Shown one piece after another: positions 53,172-62,594 of a stretch of 64,000 bases of DNA. The translations under genes and the position numbers were made by a program. The DNA comes from Halococcus saccharolyticus DSM 5350 (lineage in GTDB: Archaea; Halobacteriota; Halobacteria; Halobacteriales; Halococcaceae): positions 62,001 to 126,000 of the forward strand of contig NZ_AOMD01000021.1 in assembly GCF_000336915.1 (NCBI RefSeq), written 5' to 3'. Numbering within the stretch: the first letter of the stretch is position 1; each line of letters starts with the position of its first letter. Under the pieces are notes generated by a model. It saw only the letters and a program-made list of their open reading frames with translations. It did not search any database and was not told the DNA's origin.

Positions 53172-53728
53172 ACCCGCTCCACGGAATGACGACGCTTAAT
53201 ATTTGCTACTCCGTTTGATGCACCACAGTAATCGTTGCTTTGGCCGATGGTCGAAAGGGGCACCGACTCGTCACAGCGTCTCGGAAGATAATCAACGTAA
53301 CAAACAGGATCGATGACCAGTGACGGTTCTCGTTGGTAAGGGTGGGGTTCGGCCGGATCGGACCCGTTGTTCGTATGAGTCTAGCTCTAAGCTGTCGAGA
53401 GGTCCGAAAATTGAGGTCTACAGGCGCTTCCAACCGTTTCAGAATCTGATCAGTTACCGACATCGATGGTTCATCTGACAACTGTTGGCATGCGCAGAAC
53501 GATGGGATCGTCTGCCGAGGCACCACTCTTGCTTTAGCAGCCATGTTTTCCTTCTTTTATTCTCCCGCCGGATCCTACGTCGTAGGGAGGAGGGGAGAGA
53601 ATTCGGGAGGGTTCACAGATGAGTTCCTGCAGCACTCCATCTGTTGTGAGCCTCTGGCATCACTTGTGACGCTCTCCCCTTGCTCCTCGTATCGTACTCG
53701 AAACCCACAAGCGAGGAGAGACTCAAAC
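53172..53728. other. Gene-poor stretch at the start of the accessory island
   Basis: About 560 bases with lower GC than the preceding operons. A minus-strand frame of 112 codons begins at 53544 (MAAKARVVPRQTIPSFCACQ) behind a GAATAAAAGAAGGAAAAC sequence, but its codons are not biased and it matches nothing familiar. TTTTATTC at ~53,553 could serve promoters both ways. No RNA gene, tRNA or insertion sequence end was recognised. Confidence 0.4.
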
Positions 53729-53905
53729 ATGGTTGAAGACAGGGTAGATGTCGTTGAGAGTCGCTTAGTCCAGTGCACCGACTGTGGGAGTGTCCATCCG
53801 GCCACGCTCTCCAGCGACGGCGACGAACTGGTTCCAGATGCGGGGCGAGCGTGCAGCACCTGTCGGAACGACGAGTTCGTTCAGGTGGTGATCGATGTCG
53901 AGTAG
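53729..53905 (+). CDS. Two-CxxC zinc-finger micro-protein (58 aa), copy 1
   Basis: A 58-residue protein with cysteine pairs CTDC (16-19) and CSTC (42-45), spaced 23 residues apart: a zinc-ribbon-like site. The C-terminus RNDEFVQVVIDVE is nearly the same as GNDDFVQVMV of the copy at 61483, and the preceding SRLVQCTDCG matches SRLLRCGKCG, so the two genes are paralogous. GAGGAGAG ~9 bases upstream is a ribosome-binding site that decides the ATG at 53729. Such proteins are common in haloarchaea and usually affect regulation or stress; function here unknown. Confidence 0.7.
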   Translation: MVEDRVDVVESRLVQCTDCGSVHPATLSSDGDELVPDAGRACSTCRNDEFVQVVIDVE

Positions 53906-54043: not shown

Positions 54044-54583
54044 ATGGGGACCACTCAGAAGATGGCGGCTGAACCAACCGAAACCATGCGCAAGTACGAG
54101 CGAAACTGCACAGCCGAGCTGTTCGTCCGATCGTTGGCACCGACAGGGGCACATCCACAGCAAGAACGAGTCCTCGACCGAATCGAAGCGCTCCAGCAGG
54201 AAGGACAGATCGCGTCGGCGAGCGTTACCGTGTGGGGCAACGGGATCGCGCCGGAGTCGGCAACCGCCCGGACCGAGACCGGCCAGGTGATCCTCGAGAC
54301 GGTCGCCGAGTTCACCCGGTGGGCGTCCCGGAACGACCGCTCGTTTCCGTCGGCGTTCGACGAACGCGAGCGCACCTCGATGATCGACGGCGATCATCGG
54401 ACGATGATCCCGTTTCCGACGATGTGTCTCGCTATTCGTGACGGCGACGAACTCCAGTGTGTCGCGCCGTGTTCGGGTGACGGATTGACACATTCGGTTC
54501 ACGACTGCCTCAACGAACTCGGTGTGGATGAGCAGGAATCTTCCGTCCACGATTGGGAATCGGGGCGAAATGGGCGCGGATAG
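54044..54583 (+). CDS. Haloarchaeal HTH-domain regulatory protein (HTH_63-like)
   Basis: A 179-residue protein of a haloarchaea-specific group. The block AELFVRSLAPTGAHPQQERV (~residue 24) and DRIEALQQEGQIASASVTVW are typical, followed by ARTETGQVILETVAEFTRWA and a C-terminal CVAPCSGDGLTHSVHDCL. Cys-containing ends suggest a redox or metal effect. GAGGTGA six bases upstream of the ATG is a good ribosome-binding site. A second ATG at 54062 is possible. It follows a zinc micro-protein gene by ~140 bases. The family name is from memory; DNA binding is inferred. Confidence 0.7.
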   Translation: MGTTQKMAAEPTETMRKYERNCTAELFVRSLAPTGAHPQQERVLDRIEALQQEGQIASASVTVWGNGIAPESATARTETGQVILETVAEFTRWASRNDRSFPSAFDERERTSMIDGDHRTMIPFPTMCLAIRDGDELQCVAPCSGDGLTHSVHDCLNELGVDEQESSVHDWESGRNGRG

Positions 54584-55320: not shown

Positions 55321-55740
55321 TCATGGGTCCCACACACGTTCTCGGATATCGTCGAAGAAGGCGTTCGTGCAGTTGAACACGCCGCCGAGATTCACGTCGA
55401 TCATGCGCTGCCAGTCCTCGCGGGTCATGTTCGAGAACGTCTTGTCGACCGTGATCCCGGCGTTGTTCACGAGGACGTCGACCGGGCTAGCCAGCTCGTG
55501 AACACGATCACGCATGGTCTCGACCTCGGCCGGATCGGAAACGTCGGCCTGGAGCGGGATGGCGGTCCCACCGTCATCCTCGATCGCCTTCGCCGTATCG
55601 TAGGCGGCCTCCGACGAGCGATAGTTCGCGATCACGGTCGCTCCCTGCCGTCCAAGTTCTTCCGCGATTCCCCGCCCGATTCCCCTCGATACACCCGTGA
55701 CGACGCACGTTTGGTTCGAATTCAGCTGTTGGGTTGTGGC
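55321..55740 (-). pseudogene. Remnant of a SDR (acetoacetyl-CoA reductase/FabG-like)
   Basis: The N-terminal part reads TCVVTGVSRGIGRGIAEELG, then TVIANYRSSEAAYDTAKAIE, VLVNNAG and NVNLGG-type NLGGVFNCTNAFFDD: a good NADPH-binding half similar to PhaB or FabG. It then ends in RERVWDP and a stop, before the catalytic Ser and Tyr-x3-Lys. On the 5' side no ATG, GTG or TTG precedes the glycine-rich motif before an in-frame TAG. The gene thus lacks both a start and its active site, and is a decayed remnant. An enzyme of this kind would make hydroxybutyryl-CoA for polyhydroxyalkanoate. Confidence 0.75.
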
Positions 55741-56337: not shown

Positions 56338-56696
56338 CGGATCGCTTCGCTGCCTGCGTGGTGGTACCATGAGTGGCTGCCTCCGGTACGAAGGTGTGCC
56401 CGAACAGGGAGGCGATTTCACGATGCAAAGGGGGTCGGTGGATACCCACCTCGACAGCGTGAAAGAACGCATGTCGCTGTTGGGAACGTACTCCGCACTC
56501 GTATGAATGAGGGACACAGGCATACGTCTTTGTGGTTTATCTGTGATGGGCTTCGTGTGGAGAGATGGTTACAGAAGAAACAAATATCCGATTCGCCAAA
56601 ATACATCGATCAACAGCGCTCTCGTGCCCGTATTGGTGGGACAGCGACTACATGATCAAATACAAACCAGGTTCTTGTGCACCCTGTTATACGTGA

Positions 56697-57350
56697 CTAT
56701 TCGTCCAACTGGAAGGTTTCGGCGAGAATCCCGCGCAATCCGCGCTGGAGTCGACGCGAATACGCTTGTCTGCTGATCCCGACCTCTTCGGCGAGTTCAG
56801 TCAGCGAACTCTCGCGTGGCACCGTGAAGTACCCCTGTTCGAACGCCAGCGCGAGCGCTTCGTATTGTTTTGGGGTGAGTCCATACGAATCGATCTCGGT
56901 CTCCGTAGGGTTGTGATACACCTGGGTGATTTCGATCGGAATGTCGCGGTCGAGACACTCGCGCTGGAAGGCTTCGAGCACCCCCGTATTGTGCGCGCGG
57001 ATCTGGAACCGCCACTCGGTCGCGGTCCCCTCGGCTTCCTCGACGAGGATGTCGTTGTCCCTGAAGACACCCAAGAGACCGTCGAGTTCGGCGTCATCGG
57101 TCCACTCGATATGATATAACGTCTTGGTCACTGAGCCATCGAGATCGGTGAGCGACGCCACGTGTGGGTCGGATCGAACCTGTCGTTCGAACGCTGCGGC
57201 GTCGTAGCCCGCCCCCACCCAGAAGTACGGCAGGAGATGGTTGCCGATCGGGACGAATTGTGTCAGTTCGATGCGCGCGCTCGGGTGACTGAGAACCTCA
57301 CCGAGGGAGAATTCATCGCTCGGGATCGCGAGGCCAGCGATTGTCGTCAT
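56697..57350 (-). CDS. HTH-10 regulator, array member A (217 aa)
   Basis: Full-length Bat-type regulator. The N-terminal ~150 residues (VLSHPSARIELTQFVPIG, LLPYFWVGAGYDAAAFE, TLYHIEWTDDAELDGLLGVF) are a bacterio-opsin-activator-type sensory region with an inserted NTGVLEAFQREC. The C-terminal HTH is SLTELAEEVGISRQAYSRRL. Members A, C and D are paralogues, all ending in the same HTH with Tyr-Ser-Arg-Arg-Leu. A CAATAACG TATA-like element ~100 bases upstream (minus strand, ~57,448) implies a ~70-base leader. Confidence 0.88.
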   Translation of the reverse strand: MTTIAGLAIPSDEFSLGEVLSHPSARIELTQFVPIGNHLLPYFWVGAGYDAAAFERQVRSDPHVASLTDLDGSVTKTLYHIEWTDDAELDGLLGVFRDNDILVEEAEGTATEWRFQIRAHNTGVLEAFQRECLDRDIPIEITQVYHNPTETEIDSYGLTPKQYEALALAFEQGYFTVPRESSLTELAEEVGISRQAYSRRLQRGLRGILAETFQLDE

Positions 57351-57564
57351 GGCTCGTGTGTGGACACCTCGGTGTGAGAGACGGCGAAACGGCTACGGTG
57401 GGTAGCTCTCAGTTGTGACTCCTCGTGGGTGCTGGCTATTAGGCGTTATTGGTGCGAAATTGACGTCACCGAAGTAAAAGCGGCTGCCTCAAACTGTGGA
57501 GTGACTCTCGCTGGAAAGTTGAGCGTTTCTCGGCAAATGATGGTGATACCCCCCAACTGATTAC

Positions 57565-58287
57565 TCAATCGGTGGTGTCGAGACTGTTGTCGAGATGGTT
57601 GGCGAGGCCGCGGCGCAACCGCTCGGAAGCGGCCTGATCCGAAATGTCGAACTCCGCGGCGAGTTCCGCGAGACTCACTTCGCGCGGGATGGCGAAGTAA
57701 CCGCGATTGACCGCAGCGGTGAGGAGATCGCGTTGTTTGCTGGTCGCCCCGTATCGATCCCGGGCTCGTTCACCCGAGGTTGAGGCCTTCTTCAGCTGGG
57801 TGAGGCTGAACCCCCATCCACGATCGCGACAGCACTCACGGAGCTCGGCGAGAGCCGCACGGTCGGGCAGACACATTCGCACCTCCCAGTCGTTCGGCCG
57901 TCGTGTCGCGGCGAGCAACACTGCACTCTCGGTGGCCCACTCCCAGTACAGCGAGTGCTCCCGGGGAATTTCCAGTTGATAGCGGCGCTCGTCCGCGGCT
58001 TCGACACCGAGTCGCTCGACACTCCTGACTGTTTCGTCGGCAGCGAGCGCGTCTTCGAACTCGTCGAGTGCCGTGCCCCTGGCCCTGATCGTCAGCAGCG
58101 TTCCCGTGTCGTCGACCGCGAGTTCCTGTTCGACTTCGACGGTCGTGTCGCGGACACGCTGGACCGTCTGACGGAGTAACGGTGCGTCGAGGCGGAACGT
58201 CACGAGCAGGCTCGCCTCCTTGGTCGATATTGACGGCTTCTCTCCCTCCCCCTCAACTCCCCCTTCTCTATGAGCCTTTCTGCTCAT
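57565..58287 (-). CDS. HTH-10 regulator, array member B (240 aa)
   Basis: A 240-residue regulator with a different N-terminal half from A, C and D: LLVTFRLDAPLLRQTVQRVR, VEAADERRYQLEIPREHSLY, WEVRMCLPDRAALAELRECC. The HTH is VSLAELAAEFDISDQAASER, then LRRGLANHL, so it is a more distant relative. The start is ATG at 58287 (MSRKAHREGGVEGEGEK); an ATG at 58443 would add a Cys-rich segment unlike the family. The TATA is not obvious; an AT-rich stretch spans 58,300-58,480. Confidence 0.85.
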   Translation of the reverse strand: MSRKAHREGGVEGEGEKPSISTKEASLLVTFRLDAPLLRQTVQRVRDTTVEVEQELAVDDTGTLLTIRARGTALDEFEDALAADETVRSVERLGVEAADERRYQLEIPREHSLYWEWATESAVLLAATRRPNDWEVRMCLPDRAALAELRECCRDRGWGFSLTQLKKASTSGERARDRYGATSKQRDLLTAAVNRGYFAIPREVSLAELAAEFDISDQAASERLRRGLANHLDNSLDTTD

Positions 58288-58503
58288 GGCGTCTGTTATA
58301 CTGTACCGAGGACAGTATTCGTGGTCGGTGCACATGCACCCCCGTAAAGCCAGAATCGAACCAGTGCTGGAGAGTTTATCCCTCGTTCCATTATTTCTCT
58401 TAGATTTGTCCAGAATGAGTGGAATAGAGGGAAAATGAAGCAAACAACGGTGGAAAATGAATAATAACTGAGGCCGCGATGATCAGTTACCGTCTTCGTC
58501 GCT

Positions 58504-59156
58504 CTACTCGCCGTCTGACGGTAGCACTTCACTGAGCACGTTGCGTAGCCCTCGCTGGAGTCGGCGCGAATACGCCTGGCGACTGATCCCGATCTCTTCG
58601 GCGAGTTCGGTCAGCGTGATCTCGCGCGGCACCGCGAAGTACCCTCGCTCGAACGCCAGCGTAACCGCCTCGCGCTGCTTTCTCGTCAAACGGTGTGACG
58701 GTCCGTCAGCCTCTTCGGGATTGTGATGGACGCGCGTAATGTCGATCGGGACCTCTTTATCGTGACATGCTTCTTGGAAGGTCGACAACGCCGCTTGATC
58801 GTGCGCGCGGAGGTGGAACTCCCACTCCTCGGCCGTCCCAGAAGCCTCCTCGACGATCAGATCACGGTTCATGAGCACACCGAGCAGGCCGTCGATCTCC
58901 TCGGCCCATTCGAGGTGGTAAAGCGTCCTGCCGACCCCCCCCCGTCCAGCGGCGTGAGGCTCGCAACGCGCGAGTCGTCGCGCACCGCCCGTTCGAACAA
59001 CTCTCGATTGACGCCGTCGTCGACCCAGAAGTACGGGAGCAACGCTTCACCCATCGTCACGAACTGTGTCACCTCGACGCGGGCACCGCCGTAGCCGAGC
59101 ACCTCACCCAGCACGAAGGCATCTCCCGGGACGGTGAACTGTGCGATGAGGGTCAT
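58504..59156 (-). pseudogene. HTH-10 regulator, array member C, frameshifted in a nine-G run
   Basis: Two adjoining frames together encode a close paralogue of member A: the 5' part starts MTLIAQFTVPGDAFVLGEVL and runs through LLPYFWVDDG to LDGGG, and the 3' part continues TLYHLEWAEEIDGLLGVLMN to the HTH SLTELAEE-type LTELAEEIGISRQAYSRRL. The break is at plus-strand C9 (58935-58943). A run of 10 or 7 instead of 9 restores one frame (217 or 216 aa). It is either off by phase variation, a young pseudogene, or a sequencing error. It is treated as off here. Confidence 0.8.
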
Positions 59157-59380
59157 TGGAGCGTCGAGGTCGTGTTGCGGTCTCGCCGTTGCGGAGCCAG
59201 GCTGGTTCGTATCAGGCGGTCGTGCCAGCGACTATGACATCGTCTCCATCTGGTACAACGTTTCCAGCACATACGTGCTATAGCACACAGCTTGTACGCC
59301 ACTCCTGTAATAACTACCAGTTCACATGCACCCATACTAATATAGATGATCTGGGTGTACGACACGTATCTAACCGGCCA

Positions 59381-59394
59381 GTATTTATCAATAC
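59381..59394. promoter_or_regulatory. Palindrome GTATT-TATC-AATAC in AT-rich intergene
   Basis: A perfect 5-bp inverted repeat with a four-base centre in a markedly AT-rich gap (59,260-59,420) between members C and D. It lies just 3' of member D and far upstream of member C's start, so an operator for C or an effect on D's transcript end are both possible. Confidence 0.35.
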
Positions 59395-59438
59395 AAACAC
59401 CGTTAGGAGAGTCAGCGAGGTGTACGCGGGTGCGGAGT

Positions 59439-60116
59439 CTACTCCTCGGGACCGCGGAGCATGCTACTCAGTCCGTCACCACCGAGCGTGTTCAGAAGGA
59501 GCCCCCGCAGGCCACGGTTCAACCGGCGGGAGTAGGCTTGTCGGCTGATTCCGACCTTCTCGGCGAGCTCTGTCAGCGATGCCTCACGAGGAACGTCGAA
59601 ATACCCGCTTTCGAGCGCCACTGTCACCGCCTCATGCTGTTTGGGAGTGAGTTCGAAGCGGTTGCCGTCGGGATCGTCGGGGTTGTCGATGACCCGCCGA
59701 ATTTCGATTGTAATGCCCTTCTCGATGCAGTCGTTTTGAAACTTCGAGAGTGCGTCGCGACTCGCGCCTCGCAGTCGGAACAACCAGGTACTGTTGGTGC
59801 CGACGCCGCGCTCGACCATGATTTCGTGATCGGCGAGCGCAGCGAGCAGTCCATCGATGCCTTGCGTCCACTCGATCCGGTAGAGGGTGTGTCCGACGAC
59901 GCCGTCGAGCGCAGTGAGCTCCTCGACCCGCGGATCGTTTCGGACGTCCGCTTCCAAGGCGTCGGTCCCGTCGTCCTCGACCCAAAAATACGGGGCGAGC
60001 GTCCTGTCGATCGGGACGAACTGGGTGAGGTCGACGCGCAGGTCGTGATCGGTGTGGAGGACCTCACCGAGTTCGAACTGATCGGCCTCGACCGCGACGG
60101 TCGCGATCACGCTCAT
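59439..60116 (-). CDS. HTH-10 regulator, array member D (225 aa)
   Basis: A 225-residue paralogue of A and C: VIATVAVEADQFELGEVLHT, LAPYFWVEDDGTDALEADVR, ALDGVVGHTLYRIEWTQGID, ending in HTH SLTELAEKVGISRQAYSRRL and a C-terminal GGDGLSSMLRGPEE. Its ATG at 60116 overlaps the stop of a 22-codon upstream ORF by four bases (ATGA), so its translation is coupled to it. The frame itself is open further upstream to 60200, but that part encodes no family sequence. Confidence 0.88.
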   Translation of the reverse strand: MSVIATVAVEADQFELGEVLHTDHDLRVDLTQFVPIDRTLAPYFWVEDDGTDALEADVRNDPRVEELTALDGVVGHTLYRIEWTQGIDGLLAALADHEIMVERGVGTNSTWLFRLRGASRDALSKFQNDCIEKGITIEIRRVIDNPDDPDGNRFELTPKQHEAVTVALESGYFDVPREASLTELAEKVGISRQAYSRRLNRGLRGLLLNTLGGDGLSSMLRGPEE

Positions 60117-60181
60117 GCTGACACCTTCCCCGGCTCGTCGAGAGCGATTCGCTCGTGTTCGCCGAGTTCGTTCACGGTCAT
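60113..60181 (-). CDS. 22-codon leaderless upstream ORF of HTH-10 member D
   Basis: Encodes MTVNELGEHERIALDEPGKV followed by Ser-Ala and a stop. Its ATG lies ~28-34 bases after a TATA box (CAATAAG, 60209-60215 minus strand), i.e. at the predicted 5' end of the transcript. Its TGA overlaps the regulator ATG, so ribosomes finishing the short ORF can restart on the regulator. It may be an independent micro-protein or a translational control element. Codon choice is normal for the genome. Confidence 0.55.
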   Translation of the reverse strand: MTVNELGEHERIALDEPGKVSA

Positions 60182-60215: not shown

Positions 60216-60699
60216 TGAGGAGCCGGCAACGGAGACCACCCAGTTGATGGAGAGAGCCACGTACCGGTCATCACGATAGTTGATATCGGAGTGTTGCCCA
60301 CCATTGGATCTGGTCGTCGGATATAAAAACGATTTGAACAGTTTCCCGACATATATCAATACACCAGGTGCATCTGGCGGGGTATTTATGATCGCTGGCA
60401 GGTTGGGGGTTGACCGGGATGCTGAGACTGCTGGACGGCAGCCGACCTACCAGTTGAGCGGTCTGTGAGAGCTACCGATCCAAATGAGTGCACGAGTAGC
60501 CGTATCCTCGAATGAGATGCTATTAGCACTGCTCAGGGCATCACCGATTCTCAGTGTTGCAGCCGAGTACACTGCTTGTCCGCGGGTCGTCGTGCGCCAG
60601 TCAGCCGATCTCTCCGATCGAAAACGTTCTTGACGGGCATTGCCAGTCATGTTCTCCAACTATCCACTACTCCGGGCAACCATATCGGTGAGAAACCCG
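60216..60699. other. Gene-free stretch between HTH-10 array and zinc-finger cluster
   Basis: About 480 bases between the leftward HTH-10 genes and the rightward micro-protein genes. It holds AT-rich patches (GGATATAAAAACG at ~60,320; GGGGTATTTATGATCGC at ~60,380) that look like promoter elements, but no frame with coding character. Their targets are unclear, as the next plus-strand gene is 300 bases away. Confidence 0.4.
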
Positions 60700-60864
60700 A
60701 TGTACTACTGCCAGGGCTGCGGAGCGGTCGTGACTGATATGTATGCACGAGTATGCGCACCGCCGGATATTCACCGTGTCCGGGTATGTCCGGAGTGCGA
60801 CGACAAAGCCCGTGATGGGGCCGACGTCCGGGAAACCTACTGTCCCCGGTATTACAATGATTAA
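60700..60864 (+). CDS. Two-CxxC zinc-finger micro-protein (54 aa), copy 2
   Basis: A 54-residue protein from MYYCQGCGAVVTDMYARVC. Cysteine pairs are C4-x2-C7 and C30-x2-C33, with an extra Cys19 and a His25 between them, so a zinc knuckle is likely. The C-terminus is acidic then aromatic (RETYCPRYYND). Not closely similar to the other copies apart from the cysteine pattern. The frame is open 20 codons further upstream, but starting at the ATG 60700 gives the usual short N-terminus before the first pair. First of five consecutive small zinc genes. Confidence 0.6.
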   Translation: MYYCQGCGAVVTDMYARVCAPPDIHRVRVCPECDDKARDGADVRETYCPRYYND

Positions 60865-61122: not shown

Positions 61123-61197
61123 CATCTTTTCCGGCAATAATTGGGGGAAAGGTTCATGCGACAGCACTGAGTATTCACCTATTCAAGTAGAGATATG

Positions 61198-61377
61198 ATG
61201 AACTCACAGTGTCCCCTGTGCAGCGAAGCGGTGAGCGAATCGTCACATCCGCGCCACCGAATCATCCTCGAAGACGAGAGCTCTTCCGCCCCGAACCGCA
61301 GATCTGAGCTCAGACTCTGTGCGGAGTGCTGGGAGACACTCTACTCAGCACCCTCTTCTGTTCACATTCCCGCCTAG
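61198..61377 (+). CDS. Two-CxxC zinc-finger micro-protein (59 aa), copy 4
   Basis: Starts MNSQCPLCSEAVSESSHPRH and ends LRLCAECWETLYSAPSSVHI plus two residues. Cysteine pairs are C5-x2-C8 and C41-x2-C44. The ending CAECWETLYSA resembles CSSCWKNLHKI of copy 6, so these two are paralogous. Two ATGs in tandem (61195 and 61198) are both possible. The upstream ATTCAAGTAGAGATATG is AT-rich and may hold the promoter. Confidence 0.65.
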   Translation: MNSQCPLCSEAVSESSHPRHRIILEDESSSAPNRRSELRLCAECWETLYSAPSSVHIPA

Positions 61378-61482: not shown

Positions 61483-61671
61483 ATGAAAGGGAAAGAGATG
61501 CCACATGGGGGAGAACCGAGTATCGACAAGAGCCGTCTACTCCGGTGCGGAAAGTGCGGTGTGCTCCGTCCGGCACGGCCATCCGAGAACGGACTTATTC
61601 CACATGGACCGGAGAAAGGAGGCCGTTGTGATCTCTGTGGAAACGATGACTTCGTTCAGGTAATGGTCTAA
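61483..61671 (+). CDS. Two-CxxC zinc-finger micro-protein (62 aa), copy 5
   Basis: A 62-residue protein. Cysteine pairs are C22-x2-C25 and C49-x2-C52. From SRLLRCGKCGVLRPARP and CDLCGNDDFVQVMV it is a clear paralogue of copy 1 at 53729, ~7.7 kb away. An internal ATG (61498, MPHGGEPSIDKSR) preceded by AAAGGGAAAGAG is an alternative start that gives 57 residues, closer to copy 1. Confidence 0.7.
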   Translation: MKGKEMPHGGEPSIDKSRLLRCGKCGVLRPARPSENGLIPHGPEKGGRCDLCGNDDFVQVMV

Positions 61672-61855: not shown

Positions 61856-61871
61856 CATGGCTTTAGCCATG
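61856..61871. repeat. Short hairpin CATGGC-TTTA-GCCATG
   Basis: A perfect 6-bp inverted repeat with a four-base loop. Hairpins of the type ATGGCTTTAGCCAT occur at the ends of IS200/IS605-family elements in haloarchaea, so this may be a relic end. It overlaps the 5' end of the frame of zinc-finger copy 6. Confidence 0.4.
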
Positions 61872-62060
61872 GCTGTCGTAGAAGAGACACGAGGAACTGG
61901 TAGTTGCTCGATGTGTGAGAAGACTCTTGATGTGAACGGGACCCAACAGATCATCCTGAGAAGCATGAGTCGGTGGGGTGTACAGGATCGGGTGACCCAC
62001 CAGGTGTGTTCGAGCTGTTGGAAGAATCTGCACAAAATCTTCGAGCCGCCGGACCAATGA
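61869..62060 (+). CDS. Two-CxxC zinc-finger micro-protein (63 aa), copy 6
   Basis: Starts MAVVEETRGTGSCSMCEKTL from ATG 61869 (a further ATG at 61857 lies inside a hairpin). Cysteine pairs are C13-x2-C16 and C47-x2-C50; the second is followed by WKNLHKIFEPP, as in copy 4. Last of the five consecutive plus-strand zinc-finger genes. It is followed directly by an overlapping ATGA and a short frame that is not called as a gene. Confidence 0.65.
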   Translation: MAVVEETRGTGSCSMCEKTLDVNGTQQIILRSMSRWGVQDRVTHQVCSSCWKNLHKIFEPPDQ

Positions 62061-62120: not shown

Positions 62121-62594
62121 TCAGTCGAACGTTCGTTCCCGACTCGCTCGAGTGTCCGTACGCGTTCGGGTTGGTGGTCGGAGCGCTATTGGCCGTGATC
62201 TTCGGAAGGTGTACGTGGTGTCCGAAGTATCCTCGACGGTCCACCCTGTGAGATCGAGTGGTGCGTCGCCGGTGTTCTCGTAGGTGAGGTACTGGTCGTT
62301 CATGTTGTCGTTGTCGTTGCCGTCCGCGTCGGTCTGCAGACCGGCAAGCGAGAGGTCGCCCTCACCGACTTCCGATTCCTCACCCACCTCGCCGTCGGTT
62401 CCCTCGCTCTCATTGACTCCGTCAGTCTCCCCGCTCCCATCGCTCTCGTTGACCTCATCGTTCCCGTCGTCACAATTAGACCTGATTTGACGGCTGATGA
62501 GCCGGAGAGACGATCTCTTGATTGATCTGGAGAATTCGGTTGACCTCGAAGTAATTCTCCAGAGAGCTACACTCATTCGCCCGAAATCCCTCAT
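62121..62594 (-). pseudogene. Remnant of a lamin-tail-domain (LTD) protein
   Basis: The middle reads LSLAGLQTDADGNDNDNMND, then QYLTYENTGDAPLDLTGWTV and EDTSDTTYTF, a good match to the first half of haloarchaeal surface LTD domains. It is preceded by an acidic low-complexity linker (NESDGSGETDGVNESEGTDG). After YTF the frame turns into a basic, unrelated sequence (RRSRPIALRPPTRTRTD) and stops, so the second half of the domain is lost, and the N-terminus has no export signal. This looks like a decayed or truncated gene. Full-length relatives are extracellular or fused to nucleases. Confidence 0.6.

Follow-up and report, generated by a model that had tools for sequence, protein, structure and literature searches.

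Bat, the bacterio-opsin activator of Halobacterium salinarum, combines a C-terminal HTH_10 domain with sensor domains of the REC, PAS, and GAF types (PMC5847659, PMC11218638). Small zinc-finger and small overlapping open reading frame (ORF) partners adjoin bat-like genes (PMC3184054). DmsR and NarO are short HTH_10 activators that lack PAS and GAF (PMC11218638). Few haloarchaeal HTH_10 regulators have a known target or binding site. We analyzed a 64,000-nt stretch of the haloarchaeon Halococcus saccharolyticus DSM 5350 (G000:C21:62001-126000; hereafter, the window), in which four HTH-10 regulator genes, designated A, B, C, and D, are arranged in tandem. A, C, and D belong to one clade, designated X; at about half of the X loci, in several genera, an inverted repeat, GRGTKC-ATNN-GMACYC, accompanies the X gene, nearly always on its 3' side. 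Our favored reading, which we put forward tentatively from these arrangements, is that each X-type regulator controls the promoter immediately 3' of the gene that encodes it, so that in this array the regulators would mostly target one another, and that zinc micro-proteins probably assist them as co-regulators. The four genes of the array are as follows.

56697-57350, minus strand: A, BAT-HTH_10 regulator of clade X, 217 aa (HTH_10 57.1 bits, BAT 22.4 bits; SRQAYSRRL, PYFWV and position in the tree)
57565-58287, minus strand: B, BAT-HTH_10 regulator of another lineage, with SDQAASERL (HTH_10 53.1 bits, BAT 35.0 bits)
58504-59156, minus strand: C, X-clade regulator in two frames, ORFs 58869-59156 and 58504-58878 (HTH_10 62.6 bits in the 3' part)
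59439-60116, minus strand: D, X-clade BAT-HTH_10 regulator (HTH_10 59.7 bits, BAT 35.3 bits)

A C-terminal HTH_10 domain (PF04967, gathering cut-off 23.1 bits) was detected above the cut-off in A, B, D, and the 3' part of C, and all four genes run leftward, in agreement with a sequence-only reading of this DNA that had described such an array. Small corrections to the coordinates were required: the natural start of B is ATG 58287, where the mechanical call had TTG 58443, and position 60181, given earlier as the right end, lies outside the frame of D and begins a short upstream ORF instead. The BAT domain (PF15915, cut-off 25.8 bits), located N-terminal to HTH_10, exceeded its cut-off in B and D; A and the C fragment (21.5 bits) scored below it, and A is a close paralogue of D. 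Pairwise identities were 57-60% for A/C, 52-54% for A/D, and 50-54% for C/D, compared with 31-40% between B and the other three. The recognition motif SRQAYSRRL is identical across A, C, and D, with SDQAASERL at the same place in B, and the PYFWV block is found in A and D as well as in the N-terminal half of C. The claim of three paralogues with a common layout and a more distant fourth member was thus borne out. No Pfam match to REC, PAS, or GAF was obtained for the 217-240 aa array proteins, and no solved structure related to them by sequence was found. AlphaFold models of four window proteins (predicted local distance difference test score 57, predicted template modeling score 0.39) were too poor for a fold search. 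The 3.45-Mb genome has 38 HTH_10 matches, within the range of 15-48 per genome in the window's family, and the array at 56697-60116 is the only tight cluster seen among them, indicating that the arrangement is beyond chance.

In a tree of 78 HTH-10 proteins, with support from the Shimodaira-Hasegawa-like approximate likelihood-ratio test (SH-aLRT), A, C, and D fell in the 17-row clade X (SH-aLRT 100; signature SRQA[Y/F][S/T]RRL), to which a set designated X' is sister. Within X, A and C are sisters (SH-aLRT 94). B lies outside X and pairs with a gene of its own genome, G000:C12:46473 (SH-aLRT 99), which adjoins two TrmB genes. The phylogeny across haloarchaea that had been suggested as a check therefore groups the three paralogues and sets B apart. 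A profile search of 293 genomes detected full-length X members (at least 246 bits) in 14 of them, nine from the same family as the window and five others, with scores falling to ~205 bits below them; clade X is rare. A scan of named genomes with a single protein returned one distant archaeal locus only. Named X members are plasmid-borne in Haladaptatus halobius, H. caseinilyticus, and Haloarcula pelagica. Genome G282, from another family, has an X tandem pair (locus L180) in the same orientation as in the window. D groups with the first gene of this pair, L180_7199 (91/91), and A/C group with the second (81/73, weak support). Because the best tree pairs D and A/C with different G282 genes, D is probably the older paralogue, and the combination of a D-type and an A/C-type gene may be old. 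A constraint making A, C, and D one species-specific expansion was not rejected (approximately unbiased test, p-AU 0.135), and the best tree splits D from A/C.

Candidate sites for the inverted repeat were found at three positions of the array.

59320-59333, minus strand: candidate operator GGGTGCATGTGAAC in the D/C gap, directly behind a TATA-like stretch
58328-58341, minus strand: candidate operator GGGTGCATGTGCAC in the C/B gap
56671-56684, minus strand: weaker candidate operator GGGTGCACAAGAAC with one mismatch, 13 nt past A

In the window, a candidate site follows each X gene, and none follows B. Within the array, GGGTGCATGTGMAC occurs upstream of B and C only; it was fixed from these two genes before locus L180 was examined, and each gene of the G282 pair also has it upstream, where 1 and 7 of 2000 shuffles were equally good. 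When 15 loci were scanned with GGGTGCATRTGMAC at no more than one mismatch, four matches were obtained (L102, L133, L183, and L180), all intergenic and on the 3' side of an X gene. The inverted-repeat pattern was drawn up from further variants, and its copy in H. halobius, GAGTTCATATGAACTC, is a perfect palindrome. With GRGTKC-ATNN-GMACYC, 16 sites were found in the 46 kb of DNA no more than 1 kb from an X gene, compared with 15 in the other 596 kb, a ratio that is optimistic because the pattern was partly built from X loci, so that the G282 shuffles and the 15-locus scans are the cleaner comparisons. X' loci showed no excess (3 sites in 132 kb). Across the 293 genomes of haloarchaea, GGTGCATRTGAACT has exactly two copies, one upstream of C and the other upstream of the G282 gene that resembles A/C, a count that attests rarity only, since the sequence was picked from its two carriers. 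GGTGCATSTG has three copies inside the array and none elsewhere in the window.

The element recurs by X genes of other genera and families, nearly always on the 3' side, and a TATA-like stretch precedes most sites. Genes downstream of sites include a DUF7344 gene in Haloarcula pelagica, a HalOD1 gene in G019, and, in G007, a DUF7563 zinc gene together with a gene of a second HTH-10 clade, Y. In nearly every case the site is 13-370 nt past an X stop codon, which would also suit a 3' feature, such as a terminator, an mRNA processing site, or a recombination end left by X duplication, rather than a promoter operator. We consider such a feature very doubtful, given the TATA-like stretches and the open genes that follow many of the sites. 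Moreover, one G282 site lies before, not after, its X gene, and the flanks are not conserved, unlike those of a duplicated element.

In several genera, X and X' genes repeatedly occur in clusters made up of regulator genes only, and some of these clusters are plasmid-borne. Divergent TrmB pairs flanked by HTH-10 genes were found at seven loci (L090, L091, L100, L102, L118, L119, and L122), HalOD1 and DUF7344 genes accompany X/X' genes at L131-L133, L182, and L183, and clade Y genes do so at L094-L099, L107, and L119. Among the 24 X/X' genes with enough flanking sequence, 10 had an HTH-10 neighbor within 1.5 kb, compared with 0/20 independently found HTH-10 genes (Fisher 8e-4, relatedness ignored); when TrmB neighbors were also counted, the fractions were 16/24 and 1/20 (Fisher 2e-5, relatedness ignored). 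A raw test of X/X' genes against all other HTH-10 genes (P 0.27) was discarded in favor of these independent genes because its "other" set contained X neighbors. The Haloarcula pelagica plasmid NZ_CP126164.1 (L133 1859-10318) carries six HTH-10, two HalOD1, and two DUF7344 genes with a transposase within 8.5 kb, and is an extreme regulator-only array.

Since TrmB, DUF7344, HalOD1, and DUF7563 genes share these clusters, the element might be real and yet be bound by another factor, for example TrmB, DUF7344, a zinc protein of the clusters, or an unlinked HTH-10 protein. Exact matches in genomes away from X genes would fit this explanation. It is nevertheless improbable in our estimation: the enrichment tracks clade X and is absent at X' loci that have the same TrmB and zinc partners, and in both the window and G282, X genes and sites occur together with no TrmB, HalOD1, or DUF7344 gene nearby.

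Three micro-protein genes flank the array.

60694-60864, plus strand: Z, DUF7563 zinc micro-protein, divergent from D (PF24444 40.4 bits, cut-off 27)
61195-61377, plus strand: second zinc micro-protein, with relatives beside HTH-10/TrmB genes in L148, L122, and L094
56161-56337, minus strand: S, 58-aa micro-protein downstream of A, with relatives adjoining X' HTH-10 genes in other species

S had no match in Pfam or NCBIfam. At ~14 loci, a DUF7563 relative adjoins an X, X', or Y gene; one of these is the Y gene that the genome itself has on contig C4. In most of these loci the end of the DUF7563 gene and the start of the Y gene overlap by 4 or 8 nt. The zinc micro-proteins noted near the array in the sequence-only reading are thus a recurrent partner of HTH-10 genes, not a bystander, and by analogy with Brz and Brb the DUF7563 protein is probably a co-regulator of HTH-10 proteins. 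In the genome's own DUF7563-Y pair (L150 1178-2339, G000:C4), the overlap is 8 nt; no X gene adjoins it, and the gene upstream is unrelated. Further zinc-ribbon-like small ORFs are present in the window at 61483-61671, 61857-62060, and 53543-53905, the first and last of which are mutually related.

Under the favored reading, the locus would be a set of one-component haloarchaeal transcription factors, with BAT at the N terminus and HTH_10 at the C terminus, in which X-type proteins bind GRGTKC-ATNN-GMACYC, probably as dimers. The computations establish gene content, domains, clade membership, clustering, partner genes, and conservation of the sites; this binding and dimerization, the sign of control, the signal, and the role of the zinc proteins are inferred. 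The array proteins have no sensor domain other than BAT. The bound element, just behind a TATA-like element 3' of the X gene, would control the promoter of the next gene, so the target of D would be C, that of C would be B, and that of A would be S. Its place beside a TATA box suggests control at initiation, and repression seems likelier than activation, which is a guess. With a single recognition helix common to A, C, and D, competition for sites and cross-talk among them would be expected, giving a local cross-regulated chain, and the DUF7563 micro-protein may serve as co-regulator in the manner of Brz and Brb with Bat. In a more general form, put forward with still less confidence, X-type HTH-10 proteins would constitute a neighbor-control system operating through this element; where the neighbors are tandem copies or other regulators (C, B, and S here; HalOD1, DUF7344, and DUF7563-Y elsewhere), it would become a self-contained, partly mobile chain with zinc micro-proteins as cofactors.

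Several observations weigh against this reading. About half of the X loci have no site (e.g., L092-L095, L097, L099, L100, L132, and L182), and at L102, L091, and L181 the site is oriented toward the X gene and no clear gene lies beyond it. Within the window, the site after A has a core mismatch, the B/A gap has no site, and C is frameshifted. An exact palindrome search of 392 genomes gave ~31 sites, compared with 2 when the pattern was reversed. The X-linked matches had been known beforehand, the matches as a whole lie mostly away from HTH-10 genes, as do most of those not linked to X, and the count was rejected as proof of X-specificity. Taken by itself, the array showed no excess of shared motifs over other intergenic regions of the genome (P 0.1-0.3), and the significance figures ignore relatedness among loci. 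Shared k-mers of the four intergenic regions beat dinucleotide shuffles but not real low-GC intergenic DNA (P 0.1-0.3) and were rejected as stand-alone evidence; one array motif was retained because it recurs in other genomes. The earlier suggestion of a cross-regulating hub is plausible and has partial, indirect support in the candidate inverted repeat shared by the D/C and C/B gaps, the position after A, and X genes elsewhere; the array-only motif test did not favor it, and B belongs to a separate lineage.

The G+C content (GC) of the window drops from ~0.65 to 0.55-0.60 from 53 kb onward, and similarity to four congeners stops at ~53.26 kb (~260 bp past 53.0 kb), upstream of methionine-synthase-like genes. 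The low-GC block with the array is not present in these congeners and looks like a lineage-specific island. It contains several zinc micro-protein genes and the following.

54044-54583: intact HTH_63 protein (PF20575, 177.7 bits), inside the low-GC block
55321-55635: truncated short-chain dehydrogenase/reductase (SDR)/FabG-like gene, the nearest metabolic gene to the array
62121-62594: lamin-tail-domain fragment

The SDR/FabG-like and lamin-tail-domain remnants point to decay within the island. The array has no intact metabolic gene beside it, as had been claimed. The DNA between the array genes, in gaps 214, 216, and 282 bp long, has a GC of 0.54, 0.47, and 0.53, compared with 0.60-0.64 inside the genes. 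An Rfam search gave no match. Relatives were not found on phages or viral contigs, so a viral origin of the array is unsupported. The setting raises the possibility that tandem duplication and lateral transfer within a decaying island produced the array incidentally, its members having unrelated distant targets and their proximity no regulatory meaning. The end of congener synteny, the fall in GC, the two gene fragments, the frameshifted C, and the frequent plasmid location of X relatives are all in keeping with this explanation, which we regard as rather unlikely. Decay alone predicts neither the recurrent X clusters in several genera, nor the fixed partner positions, nor the conserved 3' site.

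The frameshift in C, noted in the sequence-only reading, was located as follows.

58935-58943, minus strand: G9 tract at the frame break of C

The frame is broken by a 1-nt shift in this tract, one of three loci with G tracts of at least nine in the 3.45-Mb genome. Identity to A is 57.5% and 59.8% on the two sides of the break. As both sides are equally like A, the break is either recent, subject to phase variation, or an artifact of sequencing, and C could be a pseudogene.

Short ORFs and a repeated 13-mer were observed upstream of C and D.

59153-59365, minus strand: short upstream ORF before C, ending on the C start codon
59383-59395, minus strand: 13-mer TGTATTGATAWAT upstream of C
60113-60181, minus strand: 22-codon upstream ORF whose stop overlaps the D start (ATGA), in a frame open from ATG 60352
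60351-60363, minus strand: second copy of TGTATTGATAWAT, upstream of D

Upstream ORFs ending in ATGA or GTGA on the start codon precede 20/28 X/X' genes, compared with 13/47 other HTH-10 genes and 38/197 background genes. Such overlap could reflect translational coupling; the effect may in part come from a conserved N terminus. Serine at position 2 has an AGY codon in 21/21 cases. TGTATTGATAWAT has two exact copies in the genome, both ~240 nt upstream of X genes, and none in 20 relatives; its sharing alone was not significant against real intergenic DNA. At L094, L095, and L099, in three genomes, the leader ~150-250 nt upstream of X genes, before the upstream ORF, is strongly conserved and contains several hairpin-like repeats rich in GC; it had no match in Rfam.

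Taken as a whole, the array proteins are ordinary members of the known HTH_10 family. In the literature searched, the coverage of which is incomplete, no earlier description of regulator-only HTH-10 arrays or of this element was found. Stand-alone HalOD1 and DUF7344 proteins are encoded in the same clusters as X genes in G019 and on plasmids of Haladaptatus and Haloarcula; neither was found in the window, where DUF7563 and S occupy that place. Likewise, divergent TrmB pairs are flanked by HTH-10 genes in several relatives, whereas the window array has no TrmB gene and it is the own-genome sister of B that adjoins two of them. DmsR and NarO resemble the array proteins in being short HTH_10 proteins without PAS or GAF, but they regulate dimethyl sulfoxide (DMSO) and nitrate respiration, and no respiratory gene adjoins the array. 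NarO has a cysteine-rich sensing segment, which has no counterpart here, with one cysteine each in A and D and three in B.

The Bat/Brz/Brb system shares with the array a C-terminal HTH_10 domain, joined in B and D to a BAT domain above its cut-off, and a zinc micro-protein beside an HTH_10 gene. Bat has a defined target, bop, whereas A, B, and D have neither a sensor domain nor an adjoining metabolic target; Bat proper requires REC, PAS, and GAF, which places the array proteins outside it. A conserved candidate operator with fixed partners (DUF7563, S, TrmB, HalOD1, and DUF7344) would make proteins annotated as "function unknown" directly testable. The association of DUF7563 with HTH-10 genes also suggests what one group of zinc micro-proteins may do in haloarchaea, consistent with the precedent of Bat, Brz, and Brb.

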